Assembly: GCA_934215545.1 (NCBI GenBank)
Contig: CAKQAD010000004.1
Location: 1-64,000 of the forward strand
Reading direction: 5' to 3'
DNA length: 64,000 nucleotides
From: an uncultured Prevotella sp.
Lineage (GTDB): Bacteria > Bacteroidota > Bacteroidia > Bacteroidales > Bacteroidaceae
Made by a program: the position numbers and the translations under genes. Position 1 is the stretch's first letter, and every line of letters starts with the position of its first letter. This document shows, one piece after another, positions 1,337 through 35,959 of this stretch. A model generated the notes under the pieces. That model saw only the letters and a program-made list of their open reading frames with translations, ran no database searches and was not told the DNA's origin.

Positions 1337-2392
1337 ATGACCCACAACAACCCAAATGCATGCAAAAGCCACCGCATAGCTGTGGTGATACTCAATTGGA
1401 ACGGAGCAAATATGATGCGCCGCTATCTGCCATCGGTATTGGCAGCAGCCGAGGGAGTGGCAGATGTGGTAGTGGCCGACAATGCCTCTACCGACGACTC
1501 CCTGCAGATGCTGAAAGTCGAATTCGGCAGCGTGCGCACCATCGTTCTCGACAAGAACTATGGGTTTGCTGAGGGTTACAACAGGGCGCTACAACAGGTG
1601 GATGCCGAATACTATGTGCTGCTTAATAGCGATGTGTTTACACCTAAAGGATGGATTGACACATTGCTGCAATTCATGGATGCACACCCCGAGGCTGCCG
1701 CTTGCCAGCCAAAACTGCTTGCCGAACACAACCATAAGCAGTTTGAGTATGCCGGAGCAAGTGGTGGCTACATCGACAGATATGGCTATCCATTCTGCCG
1801 AGGCAGATTGTTTGACACTGTGGAGCACGACAACGGACAATATGACGATGTGTGCGAAGTGGCATGGGCCACAGGAGCTTGCCTGATGATAAGAAGCACC
1901 GACTATTGGAGCATTAATGGTCTCGACCCACGCTTCTTTGCGCACAACGAAGAAATTGACTTGTGCTGGCGCCTTGGCAACCTCGGACGCAAGATTTATT
2001 GTGTGCCACAGAGCAAAGTGTATCATGTGGGCGGTGGCACACTGCCTAAGGGCAACCCAATGAAGACCTATCTTAACTTCCGCAACAATCTAACAATGCT
2101 CTATAAGAACCTGCCCGATGCCGACCTGCGCCATGTAATGCGTGTGCGATTCTGCCTCGATTGGGTGGCTGCACTAAAGGTGCTCATTGCCGACCGCAAC
2201 CCCTCTGAGTTCAAAGCCATATTAAAGGCGCGCAAGGATTTCAAGCAATGGCGCAACAACTTCGATACCGACAGACAGCAAATACAAGCTACGCGCACCA
2301 CCAATGTCAGCAAAGTGCGCACTGCCTACGCCATTCTGTGGCAGTATTATGCCAAGCATGTGCGCAGATATGCCGACCTTCCTAAAGCATAA
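1337..2392 (+). CDS. Glycosyltransferase family 2 protein
   Basis: Predicted cytoplasmic GT-A fold glycosyltransferase of 351 aa that transfers a sugar from a nucleotide-sugar donor. The N-terminal part reads AVVILNWNGANMM and then VVADNASTDDS, typical of GT2 enzymes. The metal-binding DxD-like motif is within YYVLLNSDVF, and a later acidic motif, HNEEIDLCWRL, is typical of the rhamnosyltransferase-like (WbbL/RfbF) subgroup. The last 100 residues are a helical tail. The sugar and acceptor cannot be read from the sequence, but cell-surface polysaccharide or O-antigen synthesis is likely. No promoter is visible in the 60 bp after mtaB, so co-transcription is likely. Confidence 0.88.
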   Translation: MTHNNPNACKSHRIAVVILNWNGANMMRRYLPSVLAAAEGVADVVVADNASTDDSLQMLKVEFGSVRTIVLDKNYGFAEGYNRALQQVDAEYYVLLNSDVFTPKGWIDTLLQFMDAHPEAAACQPKLLAEHNHKQFEYAGASGGYIDRYGYPFCRGRLFDTVEHDNGQYDDVCEVAWATGACLMIRSTDYWSINGLDPRFFAHNEEIDLCWRLGNLGRKIYCVPQSKVYHVGGGTLPKGNPMKTYLNFRNNLTMLYKNLPDADLRHVMRVRFCLDWVAALKVLIADRNPSEFKAILKARKDFKQWRNNFDTDRQQIQATRTTNVSKVRTAYAILWQYYAKHVRRYADLPKA

Positions 2393-2490
2393 TAATTCGT
2401 ATCGTAGCGGATTTTATTAATGTATTTTTGGGTTTTTTAAGCAAGAACCATCGACAAAGGCTTGTTGTTTTAACTTTTTTAGCTGAAAAA

Positions 2491-2521
2491 TTGTTGCTAT
2501 AATATTTTTTTAGTATTTTTG
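2491..2521 (+). promoter_or_regulatory. Bacteroidetes-type promoter of the GldB-like lipoprotein gene
   Basis: TTGTTG at 2491-2496 is followed 17-20 bp later by TATTTTTG (2514-2521), a match to the -7 consensus TAnnTTTG. The TTG at 2519 lies inside this element, which argues against using it as a start codon and supports the GTG at 2570. Confidence 0.65.
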
Positions 2522-2569
2522 CAATACGAAAACAAAAATTATATAAATCCGTATTCAGCAAAGCCTATT

Positions 2570-3364
2570 GTGAGAAAATTCTACGCCATCATATTGACTA
2601 TACTTTTATTGGCTTCAACCGCATGCGAGTTGAAGCTAAGCCAATATGGCGACGACACCAAGAGCACACTCATAGAGGTGCAGCGCTACGATCGTCTTGA
2701 GAGCCGTTACCTAACCACTGGCGACTTCTCCGCATTGCAGCAGATGAACATCGACTATGCCAAGGAGACGCGCATGCTTATAGAGAATGTGCTGCGCATA
2801 GGCGAGGTGAACGACCCAGAGATAAACTCAAAGTTTCTGAAGTTCTATCAAGACACCATACTGCAAACGATAATTGCCGATGTTGAAACACAATACGTCA
2901 ACATGGACGACATTAATCAGCAACTCAGCGATGCTTTTGCACGTTTGCAAAAGGAATTGCCCGATCTCACACTGCCCAAGGTATATGCACAGATAGGAGC
3001 GCTCGACCAAAGCATCATCATAGGCGAGAACTCAATAGGCATATCGCTCGACAAATATCTCGGTGCCGACTATCACATCTATAGCAATTATTATCCCAAA
3101 GAACAGCGGCAGATGATGAATCGTAGCGCCATTGTGCCCGATTGTCTGAGCTTCTATCTGCTAAGCTTGTATCCGTTGCAAAACTATGCCACAAGCACAC
3201 AGATGCAACGCGACAAGCACATGGGAAAGGTGATGTGGGCTGTAAATAAGCTCATGAAGCGGAAAGTGTTTAACACTCAATATACTAAGGAAGCAGAGAC
3301 GTTGGCAAAGCGCCATCCGCATCTGGCGGTGACAGATATTTTAGCATCTGACAAGATTAAATAA
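2570..3364 (+). CDS. GldB-like lipoprotein
   Basis: Predicted lipoprotein of about 264 aa. Translation most likely begins at GTG 2570, giving a basic-hydrophobic signal peptide (MRKFYAIILTILLLASTAC) ending in a lipobox-like cysteine. An upstream TTG in the same frame lies within the promoter. The central segment, PKVYAQIGALDQSIIIGE followed by SIGISLDKYLG and a YYPKEQRQMM stretch, resembles the GldB family of gliding-motility-associated lipoproteins, which also occurs in non-gliding Bacteroidales. GldB homologues have a metalloprotease-like fold, but activity is unproven. The link to GldB is from pattern recognition only. It could also be an uncharacterised lipoprotein of similar fold. A strong bidirectional terminator follows. 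Confidence 0.6.
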   Translation: MRKFYAIILTILLLASTACELKLSQYGDDTKSTLIEVQRYDRLESRYLTTGDFSALQQMNIDYAKETRMLIENVLRIGEVNDPEINSKFLKFYQDTILQTIIADVETQYVNMDDINQQLSDAFARLQKELPDLTLPKVYAQIGALDQSIIIGENSIGISLDKYLGADYHIYSNYYPKEQRQMMNRSAIVPDCLSFYLLSLYPLQNYATSTQMQRDKHMGKVMWAVNKLMKRKVFNTQYTKEAETLAKRHPHLAVTDILASDKIK

Positions 3365-3463
3365 TGCCTCCTTTGTTTGCATATATCACAATTAAATGTT
3401 AACTTTGTGATGTTATCCTGAATACAATCTTTTTACCTTAAGAAGACTAATGCCTATTGAGAT

Positions 3464-3495
3464 AAATGCCGGACTCTGAGAAGAGTCCGGCATTT
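3464..3495. terminator. Bidirectional terminator
   Basis: Perfect 13-bp inverted repeat (AAATGCCGGACTC, 3464-3476; complement 3483-3495) with a 6-nt loop, placed between convergent genes (GldB-like and mltG). Both arms end in A/T runs. Confidence 0.75.
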
Positions 3496-3531
3496 GCCAT
3501 TTATATAAGTTGCCTTTTGTTTTCGAAAATC

Positions 3532-4578
3532 TTATTTTATGCCTCTGTTGTTAAGGGCATTGCTGTAGCGTTTGGCGTTCTGCAGATGTTCATCGTAGGT
3601 GCGTGCAAAGTTGTGAGTGCCGCTGAAGTCTTCCTTGGCACACATGTAAAGATAGTCGTGATGAACAAGGTTGAGCACTGCGTCGATGCCAGCTATTGAT
3701 GCCACTCGGATTGGTCCGGGAGGCAATCCGGCGTTGCGGTAGGTATTATACGGACTCTTTATATACAATAGATTGTTGTATATACGCTTCAACTCAAAGC
3801 GTTTCCATGCGAATTTTATAGTAGGGTCGGCCTGAAGTGGCATGCCGTCAGGATATTTGGCATTGCGAAGCATAAGTCGGTTGTAGTACATTCCAGCCAC
3901 CATAGGCTTCTCGCTATTGTTGGCTGTCTCTTCATCCACAATACTGGCAAGCGTGCTCACCTCTACGGGCGACAATTTCAGTGCCTTGGCCTTGTTCAAG
4001 CGGCTTTCGTTCCAAAAACTATTGCTCTCCTTATGCATGCGGTCGAGCAGTTTCTCAACGCTTGTGTTCCAATAGATATCGTAGGTATTGGGCACAAACA
4101 TGCTCACTATCGTTGCTGTGTCGTAGCCATACTTACGGCATGTGGCTTCATCGGCAAGAGCCTTGTAGAGCTCGGTGCTGTCCATCATAAGTCGCTTTGA
4201 GAGCTCTGCTGCCAAGCGGTCGGTGGTGCGCACGGTAGGAATAACAAGGTTTACGGGCGATTGCAAGCCATTCTTCAGATGGCGGAACACCACAAGCGCA
4301 CCCTCGCCAGAGCGCACTGCATAGCGTCCGGTGCGCACATGGTCGGCATAGCTGCTGTGGCGCACAAGCATTTTGAAGCCTGTCATGGCATGGCTCGATG
4401 ATATGTCAGATAGCTTTGCAACGACAGAGTCGGCAGTGTCGTCGTTGTCAACATAGATATATTGATTTTTGCTGCCTATAAGCATGGCAGAAAAGAAATA
4501 GAAGTAGACAACGGCAAGCAAGCCTAAAAGGCATGCACCTGCCACAACGAAAATTTTCTTTTTATGGTTTTTCTTCAT
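3532..4578 (-). CDS. mltG: Endolytic murein transglycosylase MltG (YceG-like)
   Basis: Inner-membrane lytic transglycosylase that cleaves nascent glycan strands and ends peptidoglycan polymerisation. The protein has 348 aa, with a single membrane anchor at about residues 9-31 after a lysine-rich N-terminus, a LysM-like segment, and the YceG catalytic domain. The conserved catalytic region reads LASIVDEETANNSEK and includes the family's active-site glutamate. The next conserved blocks, MYYNRL and LQADPTIKFA, are intact, as is the final GLPPGPI block. Length is normal for the family. It is monocistronic and leftward, with its own promoter (4617-4647). Confidence 0.93.
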   Translation of the reverse strand: MKKNHKKKIFVVAGACLLGLLAVVYFYFFSAMLIGSKNQYIYVDNDDTADSVVAKLSDISSSHAMTGFKMLVRHSSYADHVRTGRYAVRSGEGALVVFRHLKNGLQSPVNLVIPTVRTTDRLAAELSKRLMMDSTELYKALADEATCRKYGYDTATIVSMFVPNTYDIYWNTSVEKLLDRMHKESNSFWNESRLNKAKALKLSPVEVSTLASIVDEETANNSEKPMVAGMYYNRLMLRNAKYPDGMPLQADPTIKFAWKRFELKRIYNNLLYIKSPYNTYRNAGLPPGPIRVASIAGIDAVLNLVHHDYLYMCAKEDFSGTHNFARTYDEHLQNAKRYSNALNNRGIK

Positions 4579-4616
4579 ATCGTGTGTGTAAATAAATACG
4601 TATAAAATATTTATTG

Positions 4617-4647
4617 CAAAGGTAGAGTAATTAAGATATATGGCAAA
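4617..4647 (-). promoter_or_regulatory. Promoter of mltG
   Basis: On the minus strand, TACCTTTG (4617-4624) matches TAnnTTTG. TTTG at 4644-4647 lies exactly 19 bp upstream, an almost ideal Bacteroidetes housekeeping promoter. The rightward HAD gene has only a one-mismatch -7 (TAACTTCG, 4688-4695) in the same gap. Confidence 0.75.
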
Positions 4648-4728
4648 ATAAATTTATTTTTTTTATACGTATTAGAATTAATATACGTAACTTCGCACAT
4701 CTGATTATTTACTCGTTGATATAGCGAT

Positions 4729-5367
4729 ATGTACGATACTTATATTTTCGACCTTGATGGCACCTTGCTGTCTACATTAAACGATTTGGCAGCAAGCTGC
4801 AATTATGCGTTGCGCACCAACAATATGCCCGAGCGTAGCTTGGAAGAGGTGCGTATGTTTGTGGGCAATGGCGTAAAGAAGCTCATGGAGCGTGCCATCC
4901 CTGGCGGTGAGAGCAATGCCGCTTTCGGCAAGACCTACGCCGATTTTCGCAACCATTATATGAAGCACAATCTCGACACCACACGTCCTTACGATGGAGT
5001 GATGTCTTTGCTTGAAGAGCTCAACAGCCGTGGCAAGAAGGTGGCGGTGGTGAGCAACAAGTTCTATGCCGCCACACAAGAGCTGTGCCGTCATTTCTTT
5101 GGCTCACTTGTGCATGTGGCAATAGGCGAGCGTGAGGACATTCGCAAGAAACCAGCGCCCGACACTGTGCTCGAAGCCATGCGCCAGCTGGGCGTTGATG
5201 CCGAAGGGGCAGTGTATATAGGCGATAGCGATGTGGATGTAGAGACGGCACGCAATTCGGGCATGCCTTGCATCAGTGTGCTATGGGGATTTCGCAGCCG
5301 CGAATTCCTTGTGGAGCATGGTGCCACAACATTCGTAGAGAAGCCTGCAGATATTCTTGATTGTTAG
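4729..5367 (+). CDS. gph: HAD family hydrolase, phosphoglycolate phosphatase-like
   Basis: Haloacid-dehalogenase-superfamily phosphatase of 212 aa with all four motifs: I, FDLDGTLL with the nucleophile Asp near residue 9; II, VVSNK; III, the lysine in RKKPAPD; and IV, YIGDSDVD. The cap of about 65 residues between motifs I and II is of the C1 type seen in Gph/PGP enzymes, which dephosphorylate 2-phosphoglycolate. Some relatives act on pyrophosphate or other sugar phosphates, so the substrate is inferred. It is a single gene between divergent mltG and a convergent ABC permease, ending at a long stem-loop. Confidence 0.8.
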   Translation: MYDTYIFDLDGTLLSTLNDLAASCNYALRTNNMPERSLEEVRMFVGNGVKKLMERAIPGGESNAAFGKTYADFRNHYMKHNLDTTRPYDGVMSLLEELNSRGKKVAVVSNKFYAATQELCRHFFGSLVHVAIGEREDIRKKPAPDTVLEAMRQLGVDAEGAVYIGDSDVDVETARNSGMPCISVLWGFRSREFLVEHGATTFVEKPADILDC

Positions 5368-5403
5368 AAACACAGCAAGCAACGCTTGTCGATAAGCATA
5401 AAA

Positions 5404-5466
5404 CAACGGCTACACACCATAATGTATGTCATTATGAAGACATTGCATTATGGTGTGTAGCCGTTG
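5404..5466. terminator. Long bidirectional stem-loop terminator
   Basis: Perfect 21-bp inverted repeat (arms 5404-5424 and 5446-5466) around a 21-nt loop, which itself contains ATGTC/GACAT. It sits between convergent gph and the permease gene. No clear U run follows, so termination may rest on the stem alone. Confidence 0.6.
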
Positions 5467-5501
5467 TCTGTTATGCTTAAATCCTATGCAAGGTTTGGCG
5501 A

Positions 5502-6743
5502 TTATTCATAGCGTATGGCCTCAATAGGGTCGAGCTGTGCCGCTTTTTTTGCTGGATACCAGCCGAAGAACACACCCGTTAGTGTGCACACTGCAAAGCT
5601 CATCACGATGCTCCATGGCTGAATGTAGATGGGCCAATGGGCAATGAGCTTTATAGCATACGATGCTCCGATACCCAACGCCACGCCAATGAGTCCGCCA
5701 GTGACGCTCAGCAGAATAGCCTCTATAAGGAATTGGTTGAGAATATCGATGCCGCGTGCCCCTACGCTCATGCGCAATCCGATTTCGCGTGTACGCTCTG
5801 TTACGCTTACATACATAATGTTCATTATGCCGATGCCGCCCACAATAAGCGAGATGCCAGCCACACAACCCAGCAGAATGGTCATCATGTCGGTGGTGGA
5901 GTTCATCATGCTTGCCAGCTCCTCTTGTGAACGGATGTTGAAGTCGTCCGAATCGGCATCTTGAGTGTCGGTGGCATCCTTCAACTTATGGTTGCGTCGC
6001 AGTATGGTAGTAATCTCGTCGATAGCCTTTTGTGTAAGGTCTTCGGTAATGGTAGAGCAGGTTATGCCACCAAGATACGTCTGTGCCAGGATGCGTTTCA
6101 TCACCGTGGTGTACGGTGCAAGCACCAAGTCGTCCTGGTCCATGCCCATAGAGTTGTAGCCTTTCTTCTTAAGCACGCCAATTACGCGGAAGGGAATGGA
6201 GTTGAAGCGCACCACCTTGCCCACAGGGTCGGAGCCATCCGGGAAGAGGTTGTCAACAACTGTCTGTCCGAGTATGCACACCTTTGCACTCGACTTGATG
6301 TCGGTGTCGGTGAACATCTCGCCTTCGCTAACAGACAACTGGCGTATGTCGAGATAGTCTTGATTTACTCCATAGATAGACGATGGCGTGTTGTTGTTGC
6401 CGTAAATCCACTGACCGCTGCTATTCACCGTCGGACTGATGCCTTTTATGTAGTTGCACTCGTCTTTTAACGAGCTATAGTCGGTAAGCTTCAGCGTCTC
6501 CATTGATGAGGCGTCCTGTCGCACTCCGCCAGGACCGCGGTCGGCACCTGGACTTATCATTATCATGTTTGAGCCCATCTCGGCAATGTTTGCCTGTATG
6601 CTTTTTTTCGAACCCTGTCCGATGGCGAGCATCGTTATCACCGAAGCTACGCCGATAATGATGCCCAAAGCTGTGAGAAACGAACGCAGTTTGTTGGCTG
6701 CTATTGCTCTAAGGGCTATTTTAAAAAGATTGGTGTAGTTCAT
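5502..6743 (-). CDS. ABC transporter permease, MacB/FtsX-type
   Basis: Inner-membrane permease (413 aa) of a MacAB-TolC-like export system. An N-terminal transmembrane segment (about residues 20-42, in LTALGIIIGVASVITML) is followed by a periplasmic MacB core domain of about 230 residues, then the FtsX domain with three membrane helices. The coupling region ERTREIGLRMSVGAR and the closing DPIEAIRYE are typical MacB signatures. Unlike E. coli MacB, the ATPase is a separate gene 11 bp upstream. It is the last gene of a four-gene leftward operon. Substrate is unknown; macrolides, peptides or lipoproteins are known for relatives. Confidence 0.92.
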   Translation of the reverse strand: MNYTNLFKIALRAIAANKLRSFLTALGIIIGVASVITMLAIGQGSKKSIQANIAEMGSNMIMISPGADRGPGGVRQDASSMETLKLTDYSSLKDECNYIKGISPTVNSSGQWIYGNNNTPSSIYGVNQDYLDIRQLSVSEGEMFTDTDIKSSAKVCILGQTVVDNLFPDGSDPVGKVVRFNSIPFRVIGVLKKKGYNSMGMDQDDLVLAPYTTVMKRILAQTYLGGITCSTITEDLTQKAIDEITTILRRNHKLKDATDTQDADSDDFNIRSQEELASMMNSTTDMMTILLGCVAGISLIVGGIGIMNIMYVSVTERTREIGLRMSVGARGIDILNQFLIEAILLSVTGGLIGVALGIGASYAIKLIAHWPIYIQPWSIVMSFAVCTLTGVFFGWYPAKKAAQLDPIEAIRYE

Positions 6744-6754
6744 TCCTGATGTTG

Positions 6755-7507
6755 TTAATCGTTGGTGCTTTGTGGAAGTTGCATTAATCCCTCCTCGGCA
6801 GACAAAATGTTGCTGTTGTATTCATCGCTTATCACCTGCCCATCGCGGAGCGTTATGTTACGCGAGGAATAGTTGGCAATGTCTGGATTGTGGGTAACGA
6901 AAATTATTGTTCGGCCTGCAGCATGTAGTTTTTGGAACAATACAAGAATCTCGAATGATGTGCGTGTGTCAAGATTGCCAGTGGCTTCATCTGCCAATAT
7001 CACTGCAGGATTGTTCACCAAGGCACGGGCAATGGCCACTCGCTGCATCTGTCCGCCCGACATCTGATTTGACTTATGATACAGGCGCGTTCCCAGTCCC
7101 ACTGCCTCTAATGCTTTGATGGCACGATCCTGGCGCTCCTTGGCACTTACGGCAGAGTTGTACATAAGTGGCAACTCCACGTTCTCCACACTTGTTGTCT
7201 TTGGAAGCAGGTTGTAGTTTTGGAATATAAATCCAATCTTGCGGTTGCGCAACACTGCCCGTTGTGCCTTCGACATCTTTCTCACCGACACTCCATCGAG
7301 ATAATACTCGCCGCTGCTGGGGGTGTCGAGGCATCCTAACTGGTTGAGAAGAGTAGATTTGCCAGAGCCCGATTTGCCCATTATTGTGACAAACTCGCCC
7401 TCGTATATCTTGAACGAGACACCGCGAAGTGCATGCACCACCTCGTCGCCCACAAGAAAGTTGCGCTTCACGTTGTCGAGTTCGATTACTACTTTTTTAT
7501 TTTCCAT
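6755..7507 (-). CDS. ABC transporter ATP-binding protein, MacB/LolD-type
   Basis: Cytoplasmic ATPase (250 aa) that powers the adjacent permease. Motifs in order are Walker A (MGKSGSGKSTLLNQLG), a Q-loop (FIFQNYNLL), the ABC signature MSGGQMQRVAIARAL, Walker B (VILADEATGNLD) and the switch histidine (IFVTHN). These match the LolD/MacB/SalX subgroup. Spacing to the permease is 11 bp, so co-translation is likely. A 95-bp gap separates it from the upstream MacA-like gene. Confidence 0.94.
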   Translation of the reverse strand: MENKKVVIELDNVKRNFLVGDEVVHALRGVSFKIYEGEFVTIMGKSGSGKSTLLNQLGCLDTPSSGEYYLDGVSVRKMSKAQRAVLRNRKIGFIFQNYNLLPKTTSVENVELPLMYNSAVSAKERQDRAIKALEAVGLGTRLYHKSNQMSGGQMQRVAIARALVNNPAVILADEATGNLDTRTSFEILVLFQKLHAAGRTIIFVTHNPDIANYSSRNITLRDGQVISDEYNSNILSAEEGLMQLPQSTND

Positions 7508-29038: not shown

Positions 29039-30358
29039 CTATATTCCCAATTTCTCTATTTTATTATATATAGTTTTTCGGTCTATGCCCAGCAGTCGTG
29101 CAGCCTTGGCTTTGTTGCCATTGGTCTGTTGCAGTGCGGCAATTATGCGCGAGCGCTCGCTGTCGTCGTCGTGGAGTGGGGCTATTGTATCGGTGCGTAT
29201 CTGCCCCATGGCTTGCGACAGTTCGGCAGTGGTGATTTGCTTGCCACGTGTTAGCAGCACGGCACGCTTCACCACATTGTTCAGTTCGCGCAGGTTGCCA
29301 GGCCACGAGTGTGCTGCCAGCATCTCGGCGGCGCCGGAGTTGAATCCCTCCACAGAGCGTCCGAGTTCTTCGTTGGCATGCTTCACAAATAGGTCGGCAA
29401 ACAGGAACAGGTCGCTGCCACGCTCTTGCAGCTTAGGCATGTAAATGGTAAATTCGTTGATGCGGTGATACAGGTCTTCTCTAAACCGTCCTTCGCTCAC
29501 CGCCTCGCTAAGGTTTTCGTTGGTGGCACACACCAGGCGTATGTCGATAGATATTTCCTCGGCACCCCCCACAGGGCGTATGCGTCGTTCCTGCAAGGCA
29601 CGCAGCAGTTGCACCTGCACATCATAGCTCAGGTTGCCCACCTCGTCGAGAAACAGTGTGCCACCATTTGCAATCTCGAAAGCCCCTTGCTTGTCGGTGT
29701 CGGCGCCGGTGAACGCCCCCTTCTTATGTCCGAAGAACTCCGATGCCGCTACATCGCGTGGTATGGCACCGCAGTCGAGAGCAAAGAAAGGTCGGTCGTG
29801 TCGCGGGCTAAGGTCGTGTATGCGTCGAGCCACATACTCCTTGCCAGTGCCCGAAGCACCCAGTATGAGCACCGACATTGGCGTTGGCGCCACCAGTTCC
29901 ACATAGCTATAAAGCTGTTTTGAAGCCTCGCTCTTGCCCTCGATATGGCGTGGTGTGGTTTGTGTGTCGGTATGCACCTCGGCAGCCAGCTGTGTCCCCT
30001 GCTCTATGGCATCTTTTATCTTCTGTAGCAGAATGTCGGGTTGCACCGGTTTGGCTATATAGTCGGCAGCCCCCGACTTCATGGCAAGCACCGCATTCTG
30101 CACTTCGGCATAGTTGGTCATTACGATGAAGGGCACGTTCATGTGGTGTTCGTGCATCCATGCCAGCAGTCGCAAGCCATCGTGGTCGGGCAGTCGCAAG
30201 TCCGACAGCACCAGGCAGATGTCTTTGCTGTCGATAAGCACCTTCACTGCGGCGCCCACCGATGAAGCCTTGTCTACCTCAAACCCCTTTCTTCGCAACC
30301 ATGTCTGTAGCATGGTAGAGAAAGCAATGTCGTCTTCTACAATCAGTATGTGTTGCAT
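29039..30358 (-). CDS. Sigma-54-dependent response regulator, NtrC family
   Basis: Transcription activator of 439 aa. A receiver domain (residues 1-120) has acidic VEDD and the phospho-acceptor Asp53 in VLSDLRLPD. The AAA+ domain has Walker A GASGTGKE (167-174) and the sigma-54-contacting loop GAFTGA (214-219), followed by GGTLFLDEVGNL (Walker B). A Fis-type helix-turn-helix ends the protein (NGNKAKAARLLGIDRKTIYN). All parts needed for sigma-54 activation are intact. It starts 17 bp after the hybrid kinase, its likely partner. Sigma-54-like promoter sequences lie upstream of the operon and of the neighbouring small secreted protein, which are the natural candidate targets. Confidence 0.95.
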   Translation of the reverse strand: MQHILIVEDDIAFSTMLQTWLRRKGFEVDKASSVGAAVKVLIDSKDICLVLSDLRLPDHDGLRLLAWMHEHHMNVPFIVMTNYAEVQNAVLAMKSGAADYIAKPVQPDILLQKIKDAIEQGTQLAAEVHTDTQTTPRHIEGKSEASKQLYSYVELVAPTPMSVLILGASGTGKEYVARRIHDLSPRHDRPFFALDCGAIPRDVAASEFFGHKKGAFTGADTDKQGAFEIANGGTLFLDEVGNLSYDVQVQLLRALQERRIRPVGGAEEISIDIRLVCATNENLSEAVSEGRFREDLYHRINEFTIYMPKLQERGSDLFLFADLFVKHANEELGRSVEGFNSGAAEMLAAHSWPGNLRELNNVVKRAVLLTRGKQITTAELSQAMGQIRTDTIAPLHDDDSERSRIIAALQQTNGNKAKAARLLGIDRKTIYNKIEKLGI

Positions 30359-30375
30359 GTTGTGATGATGATATT

Positions 30376-32835
30376 CTAAAGCGTCGATAATCTTATCTGT
30401 TTCAGTTGTTCTGTTAATCTCTCTGTGAGCACCGCCCGTTGTTGTGGAGCAGTGTTGTCGATATGCTCTGGCGTAAGTGGTTTAAGCCATTCGTTGCCAC
30501 CCGGCCTGAGCATCTCGAGCAGCGGCATAGCCTTATGCGCTGCTTTGGCAATGCTCTGTGCATCGGTAGCATCGCCGAGCAGACAGAGATATTCGTCAAT
30601 CGACTTGCGGATGTCGTCGACGATCTGCTGCTCAGCCTCGGGGCATCCATCGGTGAATGGTAGCAATGCCGAGCGCAGGTTGCAGGCTGCCTCGGAATGT
30701 GAGCTATTATTGCTCTTCACCCTCACCATCACCCCCGTAAGTTGGCAAATGGTGGCAGCCAGCGTTTGCACGTTGAAAGGCTTAAACAGGCAAGCGTCGA
30801 ACCCACTGCTGCGCAGCTGTGGCATTATGCTCTGCTCATGGGCAGTCATTGCCACGAATTTTGTGCTTTGTGGCATGCCTTGTGGATTGCTGCGTATGCG
30901 CTTCATTATCTCGGTGCCGTTCATCTCGGGCATTTCGATGTCGGTGAAGACAATATTCGGTGTCTTGCTGATGGCAATGCTTATAGCCTCGTTGGCATGC
31001 GCCAGGGTGCAAATGTTGAAGTTGGCACCCTCAATGTGTCCCAGCATCTCTGTAAGCAACTGCTGTTGCAGATGGTCGTCGTCGACGATGAGCACAGCCA
31101 GCGATTGTGGTGCCTCCGTGCTTTGTGCTGTTGCCCCCTTGTCAGCTTGTTTTGTGCAAGCGTCGCCAGCAGCCACCCTCACCGGTATGCTCACGTTGAA
31201 GGTTGTGCCATGCTGTTTTTGCGATGTGGCGCTGATTGTTCCGCCGAGCAGCGTTGTTATCTCGCGTGTTATGGTGAGTCCGAGCCCCACGCCCTCCCTG
31301 CCTTGCGCTCCAGGCAATCGTGTGAAAGCATTGAACACCCGTTGCAGTTCGTCGGCAGTCATTCCGCATCCCGTATCAGCCACGCTGATGCAGATATTGC
31401 CTTTGCTTATTCCAATGGCAAGCCTCACCTCGCCCTTGTCGGTATATTTTATGGCGTTGCTCAGCAAGTTGTTCACTATCTGCTTTATTCGGAAGGCATC
31501 CGAGCGGCATATAGTATGCTCTGCCACCCTGATGTCGGCTGTCAGTTTCAGCTGCTTTGCCATGGCAAGCGGTAGCATCTGTTCCACACACTCCCTTGCC
31601 AGCGTAGCTGGTGCGAAGCTCACCTCATGACATTCGGCTTTGCCACTTTCCAACTGATGATAGTCGAGCAGTGCCGACACAAGTTGTAGCAGATGCTTTG
31701 CCGAGCCTCCGATGCTCTGCAGATAGCCCTTGCCTTTAGGGCTGTCAACATAATCGTCGAGCAGGTCGATAAATCCGGCTATCGATGCTGCCGGTGCTTT
31801 AATGTCGTGTGTTATTGTGAGCAACAATCTTTCGCGTTGCTCCATGATACGTTCTGTCTCGGCCTTCGCCTCTATGATGCGTTGGCGATCGCGTCGCTCG
31901 CGTCGTATGTCGCGCAATATGTAAGCCACCAGAATTGCCGCCGATAGTATGGCGAGCAGTCCGAGCACACCAATTCTCACTATCATGTCCCATCGTGAGC
32001 TGATGGCTGTGCCTATGGCATTCTGCAGTGCCGTATGCTCGTCGGCTTGAATGTCTTCGAGCAGTTGCCATGCCTGCCTTGTTAGCTGCAGGCTCACCAT
32101 CTGCAGTTGGTTGTTGCGGCTGTTGATTATGCTTTGCTGCCGGTTGCTTGCCTTCCGTTGCTCCTGATGGATTTCGGTGAGTGCATTAGCCACCGAGTCG
32201 GCAATATTCAGCCTATGGTTGATGGTGTCGGTCGAAGGCAGCTGTGTGATGCGAGTGGTGCTCAGCGTGTCAGTGTACTGTCGTCGGAAGGCGTCGCCCA
32301 ATCGTCGGAAGAATCCCCGTCGGCTCTTCACCACCTCATACACCGTTTCGTGCTGTTCGTGCATCTCTTTAGTTTGCGGATGAATCACTATCGAGTCGCG
32401 TCCGCTGTGCAGAGCCTTCACCTTATTATTATAGTATATGTCGTGACTATCCTTGTCGAGTTCGCGCATCACGAGCAGCGTGTTTGTGCGTTTTGCTTCC
32501 AGCAGCACCACGAGCGAGTCGAGTCGTTGCTGCTTGCTGCTGTCGGCAATCATTGGGCGTAGCTGCATTGCGCAGGTTGCCGAGTTTTTCAGGGAATGTT
32601 CGAAATGCCCCCATTCGTCGATGTCGCCCAATAGCACGGCGCGCTCGGCATTGGCAGTCTCAAGCATGGAATACATCAGCGAGTCGACAATGTTGCGGCG
32701 TTGCAACAGCCTCTCCGATGCGTGGTTGACGGCAATCAAGGAGCGTGTGTTGTCGTAGACCATCCATGTGGTCGACAGCAGCACGATGGCAAGAAGAGCG
32801 TAGCCTACAAGTATTTTTATTCTGGTGTTGAACAT
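30376..32835 (-). CDS. Hybrid sensor histidine kinase with receiver and Hpt-like domain
   Basis: 819-aa membrane sensor. Membrane helix 1 is at about residues 8-26 and helix 2 at about 286-306, enclosing a 260-residue helical extracytoplasmic sensor region. The HisKA H-box is THDIKAP with His343. HATPase motifs are NNLLSNAIKY (N-box), ADTGCGM and GLGLTI. A receiver domain (about 583-700) has IVDDD, FTDIEMPEMNG and a KPF lysine. The C-terminal 110 residues look like an Hpt module (AAHKAMPLLEML). So a His-Asp-His relay to the NtrC-type regulator downstream is likely. The input signal is not recognisable. Confidence 0.93.
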   Translation of the reverse strand: MFNTRIKILVGYALLAIVLLSTTWMVYDNTRSLIAVNHASERLLQRRNIVDSLMYSMLETANAERAVLLGDIDEWGHFEHSLKNSATCAMQLRPMIADSSKQQRLDSLVVLLEAKRTNTLLVMRELDKDSHDIYYNNKVKALHSGRDSIVIHPQTKEMHEQHETVYEVVKSRRGFFRRLGDAFRRQYTDTLSTTRITQLPSTDTINHRLNIADSVANALTEIHQEQRKASNRQQSIINSRNNQLQMVSLQLTRQAWQLLEDIQADEHTALQNAIGTAISSRWDMIVRIGVLGLLAILSAAILVAYILRDIRRERRDRQRIIEAKAETERIMEQRERLLLTITHDIKAPAASIAGFIDLLDDYVDSPKGKGYLQSIGGSAKHLLQLVSALLDYHQLESGKAECHEVSFAPATLARECVEQMLPLAMAKQLKLTADIRVAEHTICRSDAFRIKQIVNNLLSNAIKYTDKGEVRLAIGISKGNICISVADTGCGMTADELQRVFNAFTRLPGAQGREGVGLGLTITREITTLLGGTISATSQKQHGTTFNVSIPVRVAAGDACTKQADKGATAQSTEAPQSLAVLIVDDDHLQQQLLTEMLGHIEGANFNICTLAHANEAISIAISKTPNIVFTDIEMPEMNGTEIMKRIRSNPQGMPQSTKFVAMTAHEQSIMPQLRSSGFDACLFKPFNVQTLAATICQLTGVMVRVKSNNSSHSEAACNLRSALLPFTDGCPEAEQQIVDDIRKSIDEYLCLLGDATDAQSIAKAAHKAMPLLEMLRPGGNEWLKPLTPEHIDNTAPQQRAVLTERLTEQLKQIRLSTL

Positions 32836-33083
32836 GTTGTCGGATTGGCTTATTTACTAATACAATAACGCAGATTATGCCTTTTTATTTTAATCTTTTG
32901 CTTATGCAATGCCATCAGAAGCCATTTAATGATTTGTTTTCGGTCTGTGTAGCCCAGTTTTTCGTGCCATGTAATCTGGTTTTTCGGGCTTTGTAATAGC
33001 GTTATTCGTGCCATGTAATGTAGGGTAGGGAAGTGCTTTGGCTTTTTAGGAGGCATAAGTATGCAGGCATGTGAAACCATATA
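32836..33083. other. Intergenic region upstream of the kinase operon
   Basis: No gene seen. It contains two direct copies of TTCGTGCCATGTAAT (32961-32975 and 33005-33019, reading ATTACATGGCACGAA on the minus strand), one of which forms a sigma-54-type promoter. Confidence 0.6.
32999..33013 (-). promoter_or_regulatory. Sigma-54-type promoter of the hybrid kinase/NtrC operon
   Basis: Minus strand TGGCACGAATAACGC: a perfect -24 half (TGGCACG), N4, then a -12 half keeping the invariant GC but with AC for TT. GG and GC are 10 nt apart, as sigma-54 requires. A second TGGCACG copy at 32957-32971 lacks the GC. Leader would be about 150 nt. Confidence 0.55.
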
Positions 33084-33126
33084 AAAACAGCCTGCACCCT
33101 CTTGCTCTCGCAAGACGATGCAGGCC
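33084..33126 (-). terminator. Terminator of the small secreted protein gene
   Basis: Minus-strand two-part stem: GCCTGCA/TGCAGGC outside and TCTTGC/GCAAGA inside with a 4-nt loop, followed by a T5 run. It separates the small gene from the kinase operon. Confidence 0.8.
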
Positions 33127-33233
33127 ACAGTGCTTATAGATATTAGCAATTATGTTTGAAAATCTTATCTTTTTTAATCGATTAGTCAGTTAGGCAATTG
33201 ATGTTCATTGAGTCGTTCTGACACAGTTTACCG

Positions 33234-33581
33234 TTATGCTACGTTTGGGGCGGCAGTAGCAGTAGTGTCGGTGTCGGTAGAGTCGTTGCCGAGAGCGCAG
33301 TTGAACATCATTGCAGTGTCGTTGTTGTCGGTAGAGTCGTTGCCAAGTGCGCAGTTGAACATCATTGCTGTTTCGTTGGCATCGGTAGAGTCGCTGAGAG
33401 TAGTGTCTACCGGTGTTTCGATGAGAGCCTCTGCCAGTTCGCCTGCCTGAACGGCTGTGTCTACTGTTGTGGTGTCGTCGGCGCCAGCAAATCCTACTGC
33501 TGTCTGGTTGCCGTTAGCGAATACATTACCCATTGATACCATTACGAAAGCTGCGAAAGCTGCAAAAAATAACTTTTTCAT
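33234..33581 (-). CDS. Small acidic secreted protein with Cys-containing repeats
   Basis: 115-aa protein with a clear signal peptide (MKKLFFAAFAAFVMVSMGNVFA). The mature part is very rich in Asp, Thr and Ser. Two near-identical 18-aa repeats (each with TAMMFNCALGNDSTD) carry one cysteine each and are encoded by two 54-bp DNA repeats (33273-33326 and 33327-33380); a third degenerate unit ends the protein. No family recognised. It is preceded by a strong sigma-54-type promoter and followed by a terminator, next to a sigma-54 activator and its kinase, so it is probably their target. Its role is unknown: surface or periplasmic effector, metal binder or signal are all possible. Confidence 0.7.
   Translation of the reverse strand: MKKLFFAAFAAFVMVSMGNVFANGNQTAVGFAGADDTTTVDTAVQAGELAEALIETPVDTTLSDSTDANETAMMFNCALGNDSTDNNDTAMMFNCALGNDSTDTDTTATAAPNVA
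33273..33380. repeat. 2 x 54-bp in-frame direct repeat
   Basis: Both copies begin GTCGGTAGAGTCGTTGCC or close variants, period 54 bp, in frame within the small secreted protein gene. Confidence 0.85.
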
Positions 33582-33679
33582 ATGCTTTAAATTTTTTAGT
33601 TGTTAATATATTTTTTTCTTACTTGCTTGTTGAGCGGTGTAGGCTGATGTTTCTGTGCTTGTGCCGCTCGACTATTAAA

Positions 33680-33698
33680 ATGCAATGCCCATGCCAAA
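33680..33698 (-). promoter_or_regulatory. Sigma-54-type promoter of the small secreted protein gene
   Basis: Minus strand TTGGCATGGGCATTGCA: -24 TTGGCATG (one change from TGGCACG), N4, -12 TTGCA; GG-N10-GC spacing exact. It lies about 100 bp upstream of the ATG. No TAnnTTTG element is present between it and the gene. A damaged copy of the -24 region (TTTGGCATGGGCATAC) lies 65 bp upstream. Confidence 0.7.
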
Positions 33699-33775
33699 AA
33701 CTTCGTCTCTAAGTGTAAGTAATTGATAGTCAGAGTGTATGCCCATGCCAAAGGCAAATGGTGCCAAACTCCAAA

Positions 33776-33815
33776 GTGTGGAAAAGTGTGGAGAAGGTGT
33801 AGAAATTTTCCACAC
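33776..33815. promoter_or_regulatory. Inverted repeat, possible activator site
   Basis: GTGTGGAAAA (33776-33785) and its complement TTTTCCACAC (33806-33815), 20 nt apart, about 90-130 bp upstream of the sigma-54 promoter. The position suits an enhancer for an NtrC-type protein. Each arm also resembles a DnaA box (TTTTCCACA). Confidence 0.4.
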
Positions 33816-33861
33816 ATAGCATCCACACATAGCATCCACACATAGCATCTGCACATAGCGT
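33810..33861. repeat. 4 x 13-bp tandem repeat
   Basis: CCACACATAGCAT three times exactly, then CTGCACATAGCGT, and a partial fifth unit. It lies 115-180 bp upstream of the sigma-54 promoter of the small secreted gene, partly overlapping the inverted repeat. Confidence 0.85.
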
Positions 33862-33944
33862 CTGCACCCCCCACCAGTGTAGCCATGCAAAATGTGTAGA
33901 TGAGGATTTTCTTCATAAAAACGCTGTATGTCGGTCAATTTCGT

Positions 33945-33952
33945 TAACTTTG
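33945..33952 (+). promoter_or_regulatory. Promoter (-7) of dnaG
   Basis: TAACTTTG, perfect -7 match, 18 bp before the dnaG start codon; the -33 site is weak. The leader would be about 12 nt. Confidence 0.55.
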
Positions 33953-33970
33953 TAGTTATAATATATAAAT

Positions 33971-35959
33971 ATGATAGATCACGCAACAGTAGAAAGGATA
34001 AAGGATGCCGCCAACATTGTAGAGGTGGTGTCCGAATTTGTCACACTGCGCCGTAGCGGAGCCAACTATAAAGGTTTGTGTCCGTTTCACGACGAGAAGA
34101 CCCCTTCGTTCTATGTGTCGCCATCGCGCGGCTCTTGCCATTGCTTCGGATGCGGCAAGGGCGGCACCCCCGTGGGCTTCATCATGGAGCACGAGCAGAT
34201 GACCTATCCCGAAGCATTGCGTTGGCTTGCCAAGAAATATAATATAGAGATACAGGAGCGTGAGCTCACCGACGATGAGAAGCGCGAGCAGAGCGAGCGT
34301 GAGAGCATGTTCATTGTCAACGAATGGGCACTGAACTACTTTCAGAACATAATGCGCAACACCCCCGATGGTGTGGCGATAGGCATGGAATACTTCCGTA
34401 GCCGTGGCTTCCGCGACGACATAATACACAAATTCCAGTTAGGATTCGACCCCACCGACCGCCATGCCCTTGCCGCCGAGGCACGTCGCAAAGGCTATAA
34501 GGAAGAGTTCTTGCTGAAGACCGGCATCTGCTATCGCAACGACCGTGGCGAACTGATCGACCGTTATGCCGGGCGTGTGATGTTTCCGTGGATAGGCATC
34601 AGCGGAAAAGTGGTGGGATTTGGAGGCCGTCTGCTCGATGCACGCACCAAGGGCGTAAACCAGAAGTATGTTAACTCGCCCGACTCCGACATATATCATA
34701 AAGACCGCGAGCTATATGGCATATACCAAGCCAAAAAAGCCATCGCCAAAGACGACCGCGTGTATATGGTCGAGGGCTACACCGATGTGATATCAATGCA
34801 CCAATGCGGCATAGAGAATGTGGTTGCCAACTCCGGCACCGCACTGTCGGTGCATCAGATCCACATGCTGCACCGATTCACATCCAACATCACGCTGCTC
34901 TACGATGGCGATGCGGCAGGCATACATGCAGCCCTCCGAGGCACCGACATGTTGCTGGCAGAAGGCATGAACCTTAAAGTGTTGCTGCTGCCCGACGGCG
35001 ACGACCCCGACTCATTTGCAAGAAAGCACACCGCAGCCGACTTCAGAAAATATATCGAAGAACATCAGACCGACTTCATACAGTTCAAGACCGACCTGTT
35101 GCTGAAAAACGAGCGCGACCCGCTGAAACGCTCAGAAGCCATCAACTCCATAATCCAAAGCATATCGTTTGTGGTCAACCCCATACTCCGCGACACCTAC
35201 ATACACGACTGCTCCGTGCGAATGGGCATTAATGAGGCAACACTCATAAACACCCTCAACTCCTTCATTCGCAACAATCGAGAGCAGACAGCCCCTGGCG
35301 AGCGTCAGGCAGCACCGCAGCAGCGCCAGCAATCCAGCAATGCCATGGCTGGGCAGCAACCAACGCCACAGGCGCAGGCATCGAAGGTGGAGCGCATGCT
35401 TGCCGAGCTGATAATAAGGCATGGCGGCACCATCATCTACGACAATGTGCAAGCCGACGATGGCACAACGATAAGTCTTAATGTGGCGCAATATGTCGAC
35501 TATAATCTTGGTGTCGACGGGCTGCATTTTGCCAACCCCCTATATGCCAAGATACTCCAGGAGGCTGCGGCACACAGCAACGATGCCGGCTTCAACTCCG
35601 AGCAGTTCTTCACCCACCACGAAGACATGGACATATCGAAGGTGGCAACAGAGGTGTGCTTCGACAAGATGCGCATCATCAACGAGCAGAAAGCCCACGA
35701 CAAGAACGAGCAGAAGAACGCCGACGAACTGAAGATAGAACGAGAGAACGAAACAGAGGCAATACGCCAGCAGACCGAACACCTGCTCAACGACTTCCGA
35801 ATGGACTATCTTGAGCAGCGACTCAAAGAGGTGCAGCGCCAGATAGCCGCTGCCACCAACGACGCCCAGCAGCTGTCGGCACTAATGGCAGAATATCAGA
35901 AACTGCACGGCTTGCGTTCAAAGCTTGCCCGATTGCTTGGCAATAATATTATTGTTTAA
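33971..35959 (+). CDS. dnaG: DNA primase
   Basis: Synthesises RNA primers at the replication fork. The 662-aa protein has the N-terminal zinc-binding domain (CPFHDEKTPSF, then CHCFGCGKGG), the RNA-polymerase core (GRVMFPWIGISGKVVGFGGR), and the Toprim catalytic domain (VEGYTDVISMHQ and LLYDGDAAG). The C-terminal helicase-interaction region is Gln-rich (residues about 435-475), followed by a helical bundle. Intact and of normal length. It stands alone, not in the rpsU-dnaG-rpoD order of Proteobacteria. Confidence 0.97.
   Translation: MIDHATVERIKDAANIVEVVSEFVTLRRSGANYKGLCPFHDEKTPSFYVSPSRGSCHCFGCGKGGTPVGFIMEHEQMTYPEALRWLAKKYNIEIQERELTDDEKREQSERESMFIVNEWALNYFQNIMRNTPDGVAIGMEYFRSRGFRDDIIHKFQLGFDPTDRHALAAEARRKGYKEEFLLKTGICYRNDRGELIDRYAGRVMFPWIGISGKVVGFGGRLLDARTKGVNQKYVNSPDSDIYHKDRELYGIYQAKKAIAKDDRVYMVEGYTDVISMHQCGIENVVANSGTALSVHQIHMLHRFTSNITLLYDGDAAGIHAALRGTDMLLAEGMNLKVLLLPDGDDPDSFARKHTAADFRKYIEEHQTDFIQFKTDLLLKNERDPLKRSEAINSIIQSISFVVNPILRDTYIHDCSVRMGINEATLINTLNSFIRNNREQTAPGERQAAPQQRQQSSNAMAGQQPTPQAQASKVERMLAELIIRHGGTIIYDNVQADDGTTISLNVAQYVDYNLGVDGLHFANPLYAKILQEAAAHSNDAGFNSEQFFTHHEDMDISKVATEVCFDKMRIINEQKAHDKNEQKNADELKIERENETEAIRQQTEHLLNDFRMDYLEQRLKEVQRQIAAATNDAQQLSALMAEYQKLHGLRSKLARLLGNNIIV

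Follow-up and report, generated by a model that had tools for sequence, protein, structure and literature searches.

What a hybrid histidine kinase, an NtrC-type response regulator and a small secreted protein encoded side by side do together, and which of their genes depend on sigma-54, is the question raised by positions 29039 to 33916 of the 64,000-nucleotide stretch analyzed here (the window; contig CAKQAD010000004.1 of an uncultured Prevotella sp.). A sequence-only reading of this locus had described a self-contained sigma-54 circuit in which each gene has a -24/-12 promoter, with autoregulation and with an unknown small secreted protein as the main output. Our comparison with related genomes suggests, with a probability of roughly 0.7, that the locus encodes an envelope-type phosphorelay of the Bacteroidales that would drive a small exported protein through sigma-54. 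The core of this system, namely the regulator, an enhancer, an IHF-like site, sigma-54 and the small gene, is very likely to be correctly predicted. Its elements and the kinase are the following.

29039 to 30358, minus strand: NtrC-type response regulator of 439 amino acids, with REC, sigma-54 AAA+ and Fis helix-turn-helix domains (PF00072, PF00158, PF25601, PF02954)
30376 to 32835, minus strand: membrane hybrid histidine kinase of 819 amino acids, with a helical sensor, HisKA, HATPase and REC domains (Pfam) and a C-terminal HPt-like domain
33234 to 33581, minus strand: gene for the small secreted protein of 115 amino acids, an open reading frame (ORF) with a signal-peptide-like start and a 54-bp internal repeat
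33681 to 33697, minus strand: sigma-54 promoter TTGGCATGGGCATTGCA, kept in relatives
33716 to 33728, minus strand: IHF-like site TATCAATTACTTA in the enhancer-promoter spacer, with an exact WATCAANNNNTTR at offset -31
33776 to 33792, minus strand: two enhancer half-sites, TTCCACAC and TCCACAC
33797 to 33815, minus strand: enhancer palindrome (inverted repeat) GTGTGGAAAATTTCTACAC, with 1 mismatch to GTGTGGAANNNTTCCACAC; the same 19-mer is found in the related locus L001
33809 to 33859, minus strand: 13-bp tandem array of 3.9 copies (tandem repeat finder) with extra GTGTGGA half-sites

The control region of the small gene and its conservation

The three genes are located in the ORF list where the sequence-only reading had placed them, and the almost perfect sigma-54 promoter that it had assigned to the small gene is well supported. 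This element, with GG at -24 and GC at -12 separated by N10, shows 0 mismatches to YTGGCAYGNNNNTTGCW; when the 389-nt gap upstream of the gene was shuffled 1000 times by dinucleotides, no shuffle equalled this match. The single exact match to TTGGCAYGNNNNTTGCW in the window is this promoter, while 3 matches with at most 1 mismatch were found versus 0.93 expected. The inverted repeat and the 13-mer array, which had been said to lie at enhancer distance, were measured at ~100-162 bp upstream of the promoter. Neither the palindrome nor the number of half-sites in the gap (7) was reached in any of 1000 shuffles, and the spacing of the 13-bp array puts its added half-sites out of helical phase with the others. 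Because a site as good as TATCAATTACTTA was found in 37 of 1000 shuffles when it was taken singly, the weight of this match to WATCAANNNNTTR, the IHF consensus, rests on its conservation.

As to the further claim that the small gene has no housekeeping promoter, TAnnTTTG is the vegetative -7 motif of Bacteroidota, and no copy was found on the small-gene strand before the small gene; the single copy in the gap faces dnaG, the divergent neighbor that starts from 33971. A scan of 32800-34000 with the E. coli sigma-70 consensus gave 4 sites versus 2.6 expected; one of these, a weak one located at 33633-33605 (minus strand), lies just before the small gene. A second, partial copy of the promoter (TTTGGCATGGGCAT, 33739-33752) lies 54 bp upstream of the real one and has no -12 element. 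The ORF at 33596-33916 (106 amino acids), which overlaps the enhancer, the IHF-like site and the promoter and has no Pfam match, is taken as spurious.

A search with the kinase (E up to 1e-60) identified 43 of the 151 genomes of the family, from which, after leaving out G013 and G150 (catalytic half only) and the second matches of five genomes, 40 loci and L001 (one of the 43) were taken; together with L002-L004 and the window these make up 45 kinase loci, and downstream extensions were fetched for six of them. A site was counted where a -24/-12 element within 2 mismatches was preceded, inside 150 nt, by two or more half-sites. Such a site was found in 29 of the 45 loci, and an orthologue of the regulator in 38, window included; in L174 the site and the kinase are a few kb apart, and the piece fetched contains no regulator. 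Without the extensions, 24 of the 44 relatives carried a site, compared with a mean of 0.65, and never more than 2, when they were shuffled 20 times in triplet blocks. Among 30 control loci from a PF00158 search only 3 did, and these were the Segatella copri loci of this same regulator (L090 and L093) and the promoter of a paralogue (L109).

Alignment of 30 promoters (the 29 loci and L168, which falls just outside the rule) showed that the TTCCACA half-sites peak near -73, -83, -93 and -104 from the promoter element, i.e., every 10-11 bp, and therefore lie on one side of the helix. An IHF-like site is found at -32 to -28 as an exact match in 11 of the 30 promoters and within 1 mismatch in 19, where 1000 spacer shuffles gave means of 0.01 and 0.20 and maxima of 1 and 3, respectively; its position in these promoters is -29 to -31 from the element. 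The usual gene order among relatives is kinase, regulator, small gene; in S. copri it is regulator, small gene, kinase, and in the window and L001 small gene, kinase, regulator. Linkage of the three genes, enhancer and -24/-12 element are thus kept in many relatives, as had been predicted for a two-component circuit with the small secreted protein as its linked output. Loss of the -24/-12 elements from genomes that keep the gene order had been named beforehand as evidence against that circuit, and the small-gene promoter is conserved in such genomes.

At the level of the order, a search with a profile of the sensor found 45 of 247 genomes, and regions were fetched from 20. The regulator orthologue was present in 16 of these regions, and a site followed by a small secreted ORF in 5 (L259, L261, L262, L263 and L265); four further genomes had a site without such an ORF, and the promoter was exact in L261 and L262 only.

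The kinase, the probable phosphorelay and the claimed autoregulation

The regulator is a complete NtrC-type protein, in agreement with the earlier description of its GAFTGA and AAA+ motifs, with GAFTGA at residue 214 and the Walker A motif GASGTGKE at residue 167. In the kinase, for which 37 of the 45 loci were aligned (L179 and L181-L187 were left out by a letter filter), H343, D632 and H767 are invariant in 37/37 rows, the last of these in the HPt-like domain at the C-terminus. The first eight rows of the VIA list for a model of this tail comprised seven HPt proteins and one protein without a descriptive title, while comparison of the tail with PDB sequences gave designed proteins only (E 0.04-0.4). 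The model of the full-length kinase, with a mean predicted local distance difference test (pLDDT) score of 68.9 and a predicted template modeling (pTM) score of 0.32, gave a VIA list filled by kinase cores and receivers. A phosphorelay that passes through the HPt-like domain of the hybrid kinase is likely.

Residues F175, R178 and F183 of the sensor are also invariant in the alignment; they fall in a conserved RRGFFRRLGDAF-like motif (residues 173-183) of the periplasmic sensor part, in a stretch that the model leaves unplaced. The closest named homologues of the kinase are from Leyella stercorea (~75% over the sensor) and Prevotella sp. 885 (69%). Among six close homologues, several of them named Leyella stercorea (P0077, P0091, P0093, P0107, P0158 and P0187), the length of the kinase varies from 615 to 1058 amino acids, where some records may be partial, and their interdomain linkers carry the low-complexity repeats VHQQSK, NSKLKTQN and GGALVSSAPTKQQ. 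The sequence KTQNSKLKTQN is also found in the regulator linker of L001.

Two further features lie between the small gene and the kinase.

32957 to 33019, minus strand: 22-bp tandem repeat holding the claimed -24/-12 element of the kinase, judged not to be a promoter
33083 to 33126, minus strand: terminator-like hairpin in the gap between the small gene and the kinase, seen by eye, with a similar one in L001

The claim that each gene has its own -24/-12 promoter could not be upheld. The site proposed for the kinase, TGGCACG-N4-ACGC (ATGGCACGAATAACGCT), has 3 mismatches, was matched by 254 of 1000 shuffles, and has no half-sites near it in the window. Upstream of the kinase in 12 of the 44 relatives, picked because the kinase there does not follow a MATE gene, the best element had at least 4 mismatches or none was found, with only 28 nt available in L153 and L154. 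This element was therefore rejected as a promoter. Half-sites of the enhancer were not found before the kinase in any of the 13 sequences checked, and TAnnTTTG is present there in 7 of the 12 relatives, and neither in the window nor in L001. The regulator begins 17 nt after the kinase and so has no promoter of its own in view. Since the kinase site withstands neither the shuffle test nor the comparison with relatives and 7/12 relatives show a vegetative-type motif, autoregulation is unsupported; in their sequences, the kinase and regulator genes carry no indication of being controlled by sigma-54.

The claimed site itself is one unit of the 22-bp repeat, whose three tandem ATTACATGGCACGAAAAACC-like units gave 3 matches with at most 3 mismatches versus 0.06 expected. 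Despite the hairpin seen by eye, a terminator scan of the region between the small gene and the kinase called no terminator.

The small secreted protein and its counterparts

The small protein is rich in Asp, Thr and Ser, contains two Cys and no His, and has no match in Pfam or NCBIfam, PEP-CTERM included; its export signal was judged by eye. Among its 75 homologues, one is named as from an uncultured Prevotella. Exported proteins of Bacteroidota are O-glycosylated at a motif of Asp, Ser or Thr and then mostly L/I/V/T/A/S, and the passages of the review consulted describe its common forms as generally near-fully occupied, with a slight preference for Ser (PMC12871550). We counted this sequon as D(S/T)(A/I/L/V/M/T), with composition shuffles and the reversed reading as baselines. 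The mature protein of the window carries 8 sequons in 92 residues (5 DT and 3 DS), compared with a shuffle mean of 1.41 (0/2000 as many) and 1 when read backwards. Enrichment was found in all 18 Asp-rich proteins tested (P at most 0.009 for each; 122 sequons forward versus 26 reversed), and the 75 homologues have 442 sequons forward versus 2 reversed, or 7.8 per 100 residues, where 12 signal-like ORFs of the window selected by a crude filter have 0.25 per 100; since neither homologues nor internal repeats are independent of one another, these P values make the enrichment look stronger than it is. Three folded-class counterparts (L168, L169 and L173) have 0, 1 and 2 sequons (P at least 0.05). 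We lean slightly towards the small protein carrying multiple O-glycans, given its motifs, and in the Prevotella-like lineage it is probably disordered.

By eye, 19 of the 29 promoters defined by the rule precede an Asp-Ser/Thr-rich small secreted protein. In L165, L177 and L180 a protein of ~300 amino acids with a lipoprotein-like start lies behind the promoter (by eye), that of L165 having weak coiled-coil family matches only. L169 and L174 (the protein of the latter scanned as L208) encode a small secreted protein weakly similar to PF11396, and the output of L168 belongs to this same class. A PepSY identity of the folded output class was rejected, as PF11396 matched 3 of the 9 proteins tested, all below the cut-off. 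Five loci (L156, L166, L167, L172 and L218) retain the promoter and a terminator-like end with no plausible ORF between them, and could yield short transcripts or be relics. A 3' block is conserved between L166 and L172. That conserved in L156 and L167 is similar to the 3' untranslated region (UTR) which the small gene has in L168 and L169, a sign that the ORF was lost.

A scan of the 44 kinase-bearing genomes with the pattern CCACAC-N48-78-TGGCAYG-N4-TTGY gave 29 matches in 20 genomes versus 3 for the reversed pattern. These lie before small secreted proteins (18/29), before linked promoters without an ORF (3/29) and before similar membrane-fusion genes (2/29; L198 by eye, L201 by HlyD_D23). 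Unlinked paralogues of the small gene were found in S. copri (G002 with three and G003 with one), and an unlinked extra copy is also present in G001. The description of the circuit as self-contained is hence too narrow, since the same enhancer and promoter stand before unlinked genes in relatives. Separately, hsp20-like and htpG-like genes (by eye) in L081, L084, L087 and L082 have an exact -24/-12 element without this enhancer and may thus form a protein-stress set under a second sigma-54 activator. In L168, cyclophilin, M16 peptidase and MATE genes and then the kinase follow one another in one direction (1499-7490), and ORFs of like sizes lie ahead of the kinase in many other loci.

The proposed circuit, its alternatives and known systems

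In the circuit that we favor, a signal would be received by the hybrid kinase through its helical periplasmic sensor. His343 would then pass phosphate to Asp632, from which it would move on to the HPt-like His767 and to the receiver of the regulator, as the domains and residues present suggest. The phosphorylated regulator is predicted to bind the palindrome and the phased TTCCACA half-sites ~70-145 bp upstream of the promoter element, the spacer may be bent by IHF or HU at the fixed site, and the regulator would open sigma-54 polymerase at the exact -24/-12 element. The output in the Prevotella-like lineage would be the small exported Asp-Ser/Thr-rich protein, putatively glycosylated at its motifs, which may buffer or report the state of the envelope. 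Envelope stress is a candidate input, by analogy with ZraPSR and DbfQRS and in view of the efflux and folding genes of relatives; feedback of the small protein on the kinase, in the manner of ZraP and DbfQ, is conceivable and here put forward tentatively. More speculative still, and rather doubtful, is the idea that a sigma-54 phosphorelay dedicated to this task lets Bacteroidales produce bursts of a "miniature mucin," tiny disordered exported proteins that consist of hardly anything but a signal peptide followed by successive O-glycosylation sites. If so, their glycans could act as a shield of the envelope or surface or let the kinase sense the capacity for glycosylation. In some lineages folded small proteins would have taken the place of the coding part, or the coding part would have disappeared, with the enhancer-IHF-promoter cassette retained. 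The function of O-glycans in this phylum is described as still unsettled in the consulted part of the review (PMC12871550).

Several observations weigh against this circuit. No site was found by the rule in 16 of the 45 kinase loci, no plausible ORF lies behind 5 of the 29 promoters (L166, L167, L172, L182 and L186), with an apparent frameshifted relic in L186 (piece L221), and 6 of the 29 matches of the genome scan are chance-like. The relatives are non-independent samples, and rpoN was found in 44/44 of them, a count that covers relatives only, with the window's genome outside it. As to the kinase, PF01627 matched 6 of 8 tails weakly and the window's own tail not at all, the best Foldseek match to the tail was not significant (E 1.4), the sensor domain had 0 matches among PDB sequences, and residues 127-219 were modeled with pLDDT <50, so the sensor fold is stated only as mostly helical. 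The 18 Asp-rich proteins have 70 DT and 52 DS sequons, contrary to the slight preference for Ser noted in the review, and a weak sigma-70-like site lies just before the small gene.

The alternative with the most in its favor is a ZraPSR-like envelope-stress system, which we regard as a minority possibility and in which the main role of the small protein would be to bind the kinase sensor directly as a negative-feedback ligand. The tail sequence would then matter little, so lineages could swap the small protein, which fits with outputs that vary among loci while the control region stays and with the invariant F175, R178 and F183. ZraP is described as both a periplasmic chaperone and a repressor of ZraSR (PMC7657598, partial text), and the small PepSY protein DbfQ as binding the DbfS sensor (PMC12714742, partial text); however, the unlinked copies (G002 has three, G001 and G003 have one) and the strong sequon enrichment suggest a bulk role and not that of a dedicated ligand. 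It is unlikely that the system mainly controls efflux and envelope export with the small proteins as accessories. The half-site and promoter pattern before similar membrane-fusion genes in two genomes (L198 and L201) and the position of the L168 kinase downstream of cyclophilin, M16 peptidase and MATE genes speak for it, but membrane-fusion genes account for 2/29 matches only, with few half-sites, and none of this is seen in the window.

Slightly less probable again is that the module drives a short non-coding RNA in some genomes, as QseF (GlrR) drives the small RNA (sRNA) GlmY in E. coli (PMC6075780, partial text). The five ORF-less loci with a promoter and terminator-like end, and the 3' block common to L166 and L172, could be read in this way, but ORF loss explains L156 and L167 better, given a 3' block like the small-gene 3' UTR of L168 and L169, and an sRNA output was rejected for the ORF-less loci. 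Rfam models run on six loci (E up to 1; L218 was not in the set) gave six transfer RNAs, the only matches above the cut-off, and two sub-threshold rows of one microRNA family. A chance or fossil origin of the promoter and enhancer sequences, with transcription of the small gene starting at a vegetative promoter, is very improbable: the partial copy TTTGGCATGGGCAT and the weak sigma-70-like site would agree with it, but spacing and sequence are conserved over 30 promoters and no TAnnTTTG precedes the small gene. The phosphorelay acting on the small gene through sigma-54 remains the preferred explanation.

Sigma-54 sites for chaperones and transporters have been reported in Bacteroidia (PMC12316311), in the main text of which neither PepSY nor Prevotella occurs. 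Among the top-ranked open-access matches listed (titles and starts of abstracts), no paper on the present system was found. To our knowledge, few sigma-54 activator-target pairs are known in Bacteroidales, for which the locus now supplies a regulator, a binding-site model and a list of targets, and it suggests an inducible protein that consists for the most part of O-glycosylation motifs.

Among known systems, ZraPSR of E. coli likewise has, next to the genes of a kinase and an NtrC-type regulator, a small exported protein under a sigma-54 promoter (PMC7657598, as far as the partial text goes), and in NCBIfam the regulator matches ZraR best. However, the regulator scores 374.4 bits versus an equivalog cut-off of 760, the kinase here is a hybrid with REC and HPt-like domains, the small protein has no His and no ZraP-family match in Pfam or NCBIfam, and sigma-54 control of the kinase operon was not found in the window. 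DbfQRS of Vibrio cholerae also has a small exported protein gene beside a two-component system (PMC12714742), and weak PepSY similarity (PF11396, below the cut-off) is seen in one class of outputs here, whereas no PepSY match was obtained for the Asp-Ser/Thr-rich class to which the window's protein belongs, and the available part of that account mentions no sigma-54 arrangement. QseEF (GlrKR)-GlmY of E. coli shares a sigma-54 response regulator, upstream activating sequences and a role in the envelope, but its outputs, in the part of the account available, are an sRNA and rpoE (PMC6075780), and the GlrR model gives 342 versus a cut-off of 763. The PrsK/PrsR PEP-CTERM regulon, described in Proteobacteria in the available part of its account (PMC1569441), resembles the present system in having one kinase-regulator pair and a common activator site with a -24/-12 element ahead of many secreted-protein genes, but the regulator scores 368.5 bits versus a TIGR02915 cut-off of 502.6 and the small protein has no PEP-CTERM match. 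By score, the system thus belongs to neither ZraPSR nor PrsK/PrsR, yet by analogy it would work like both.

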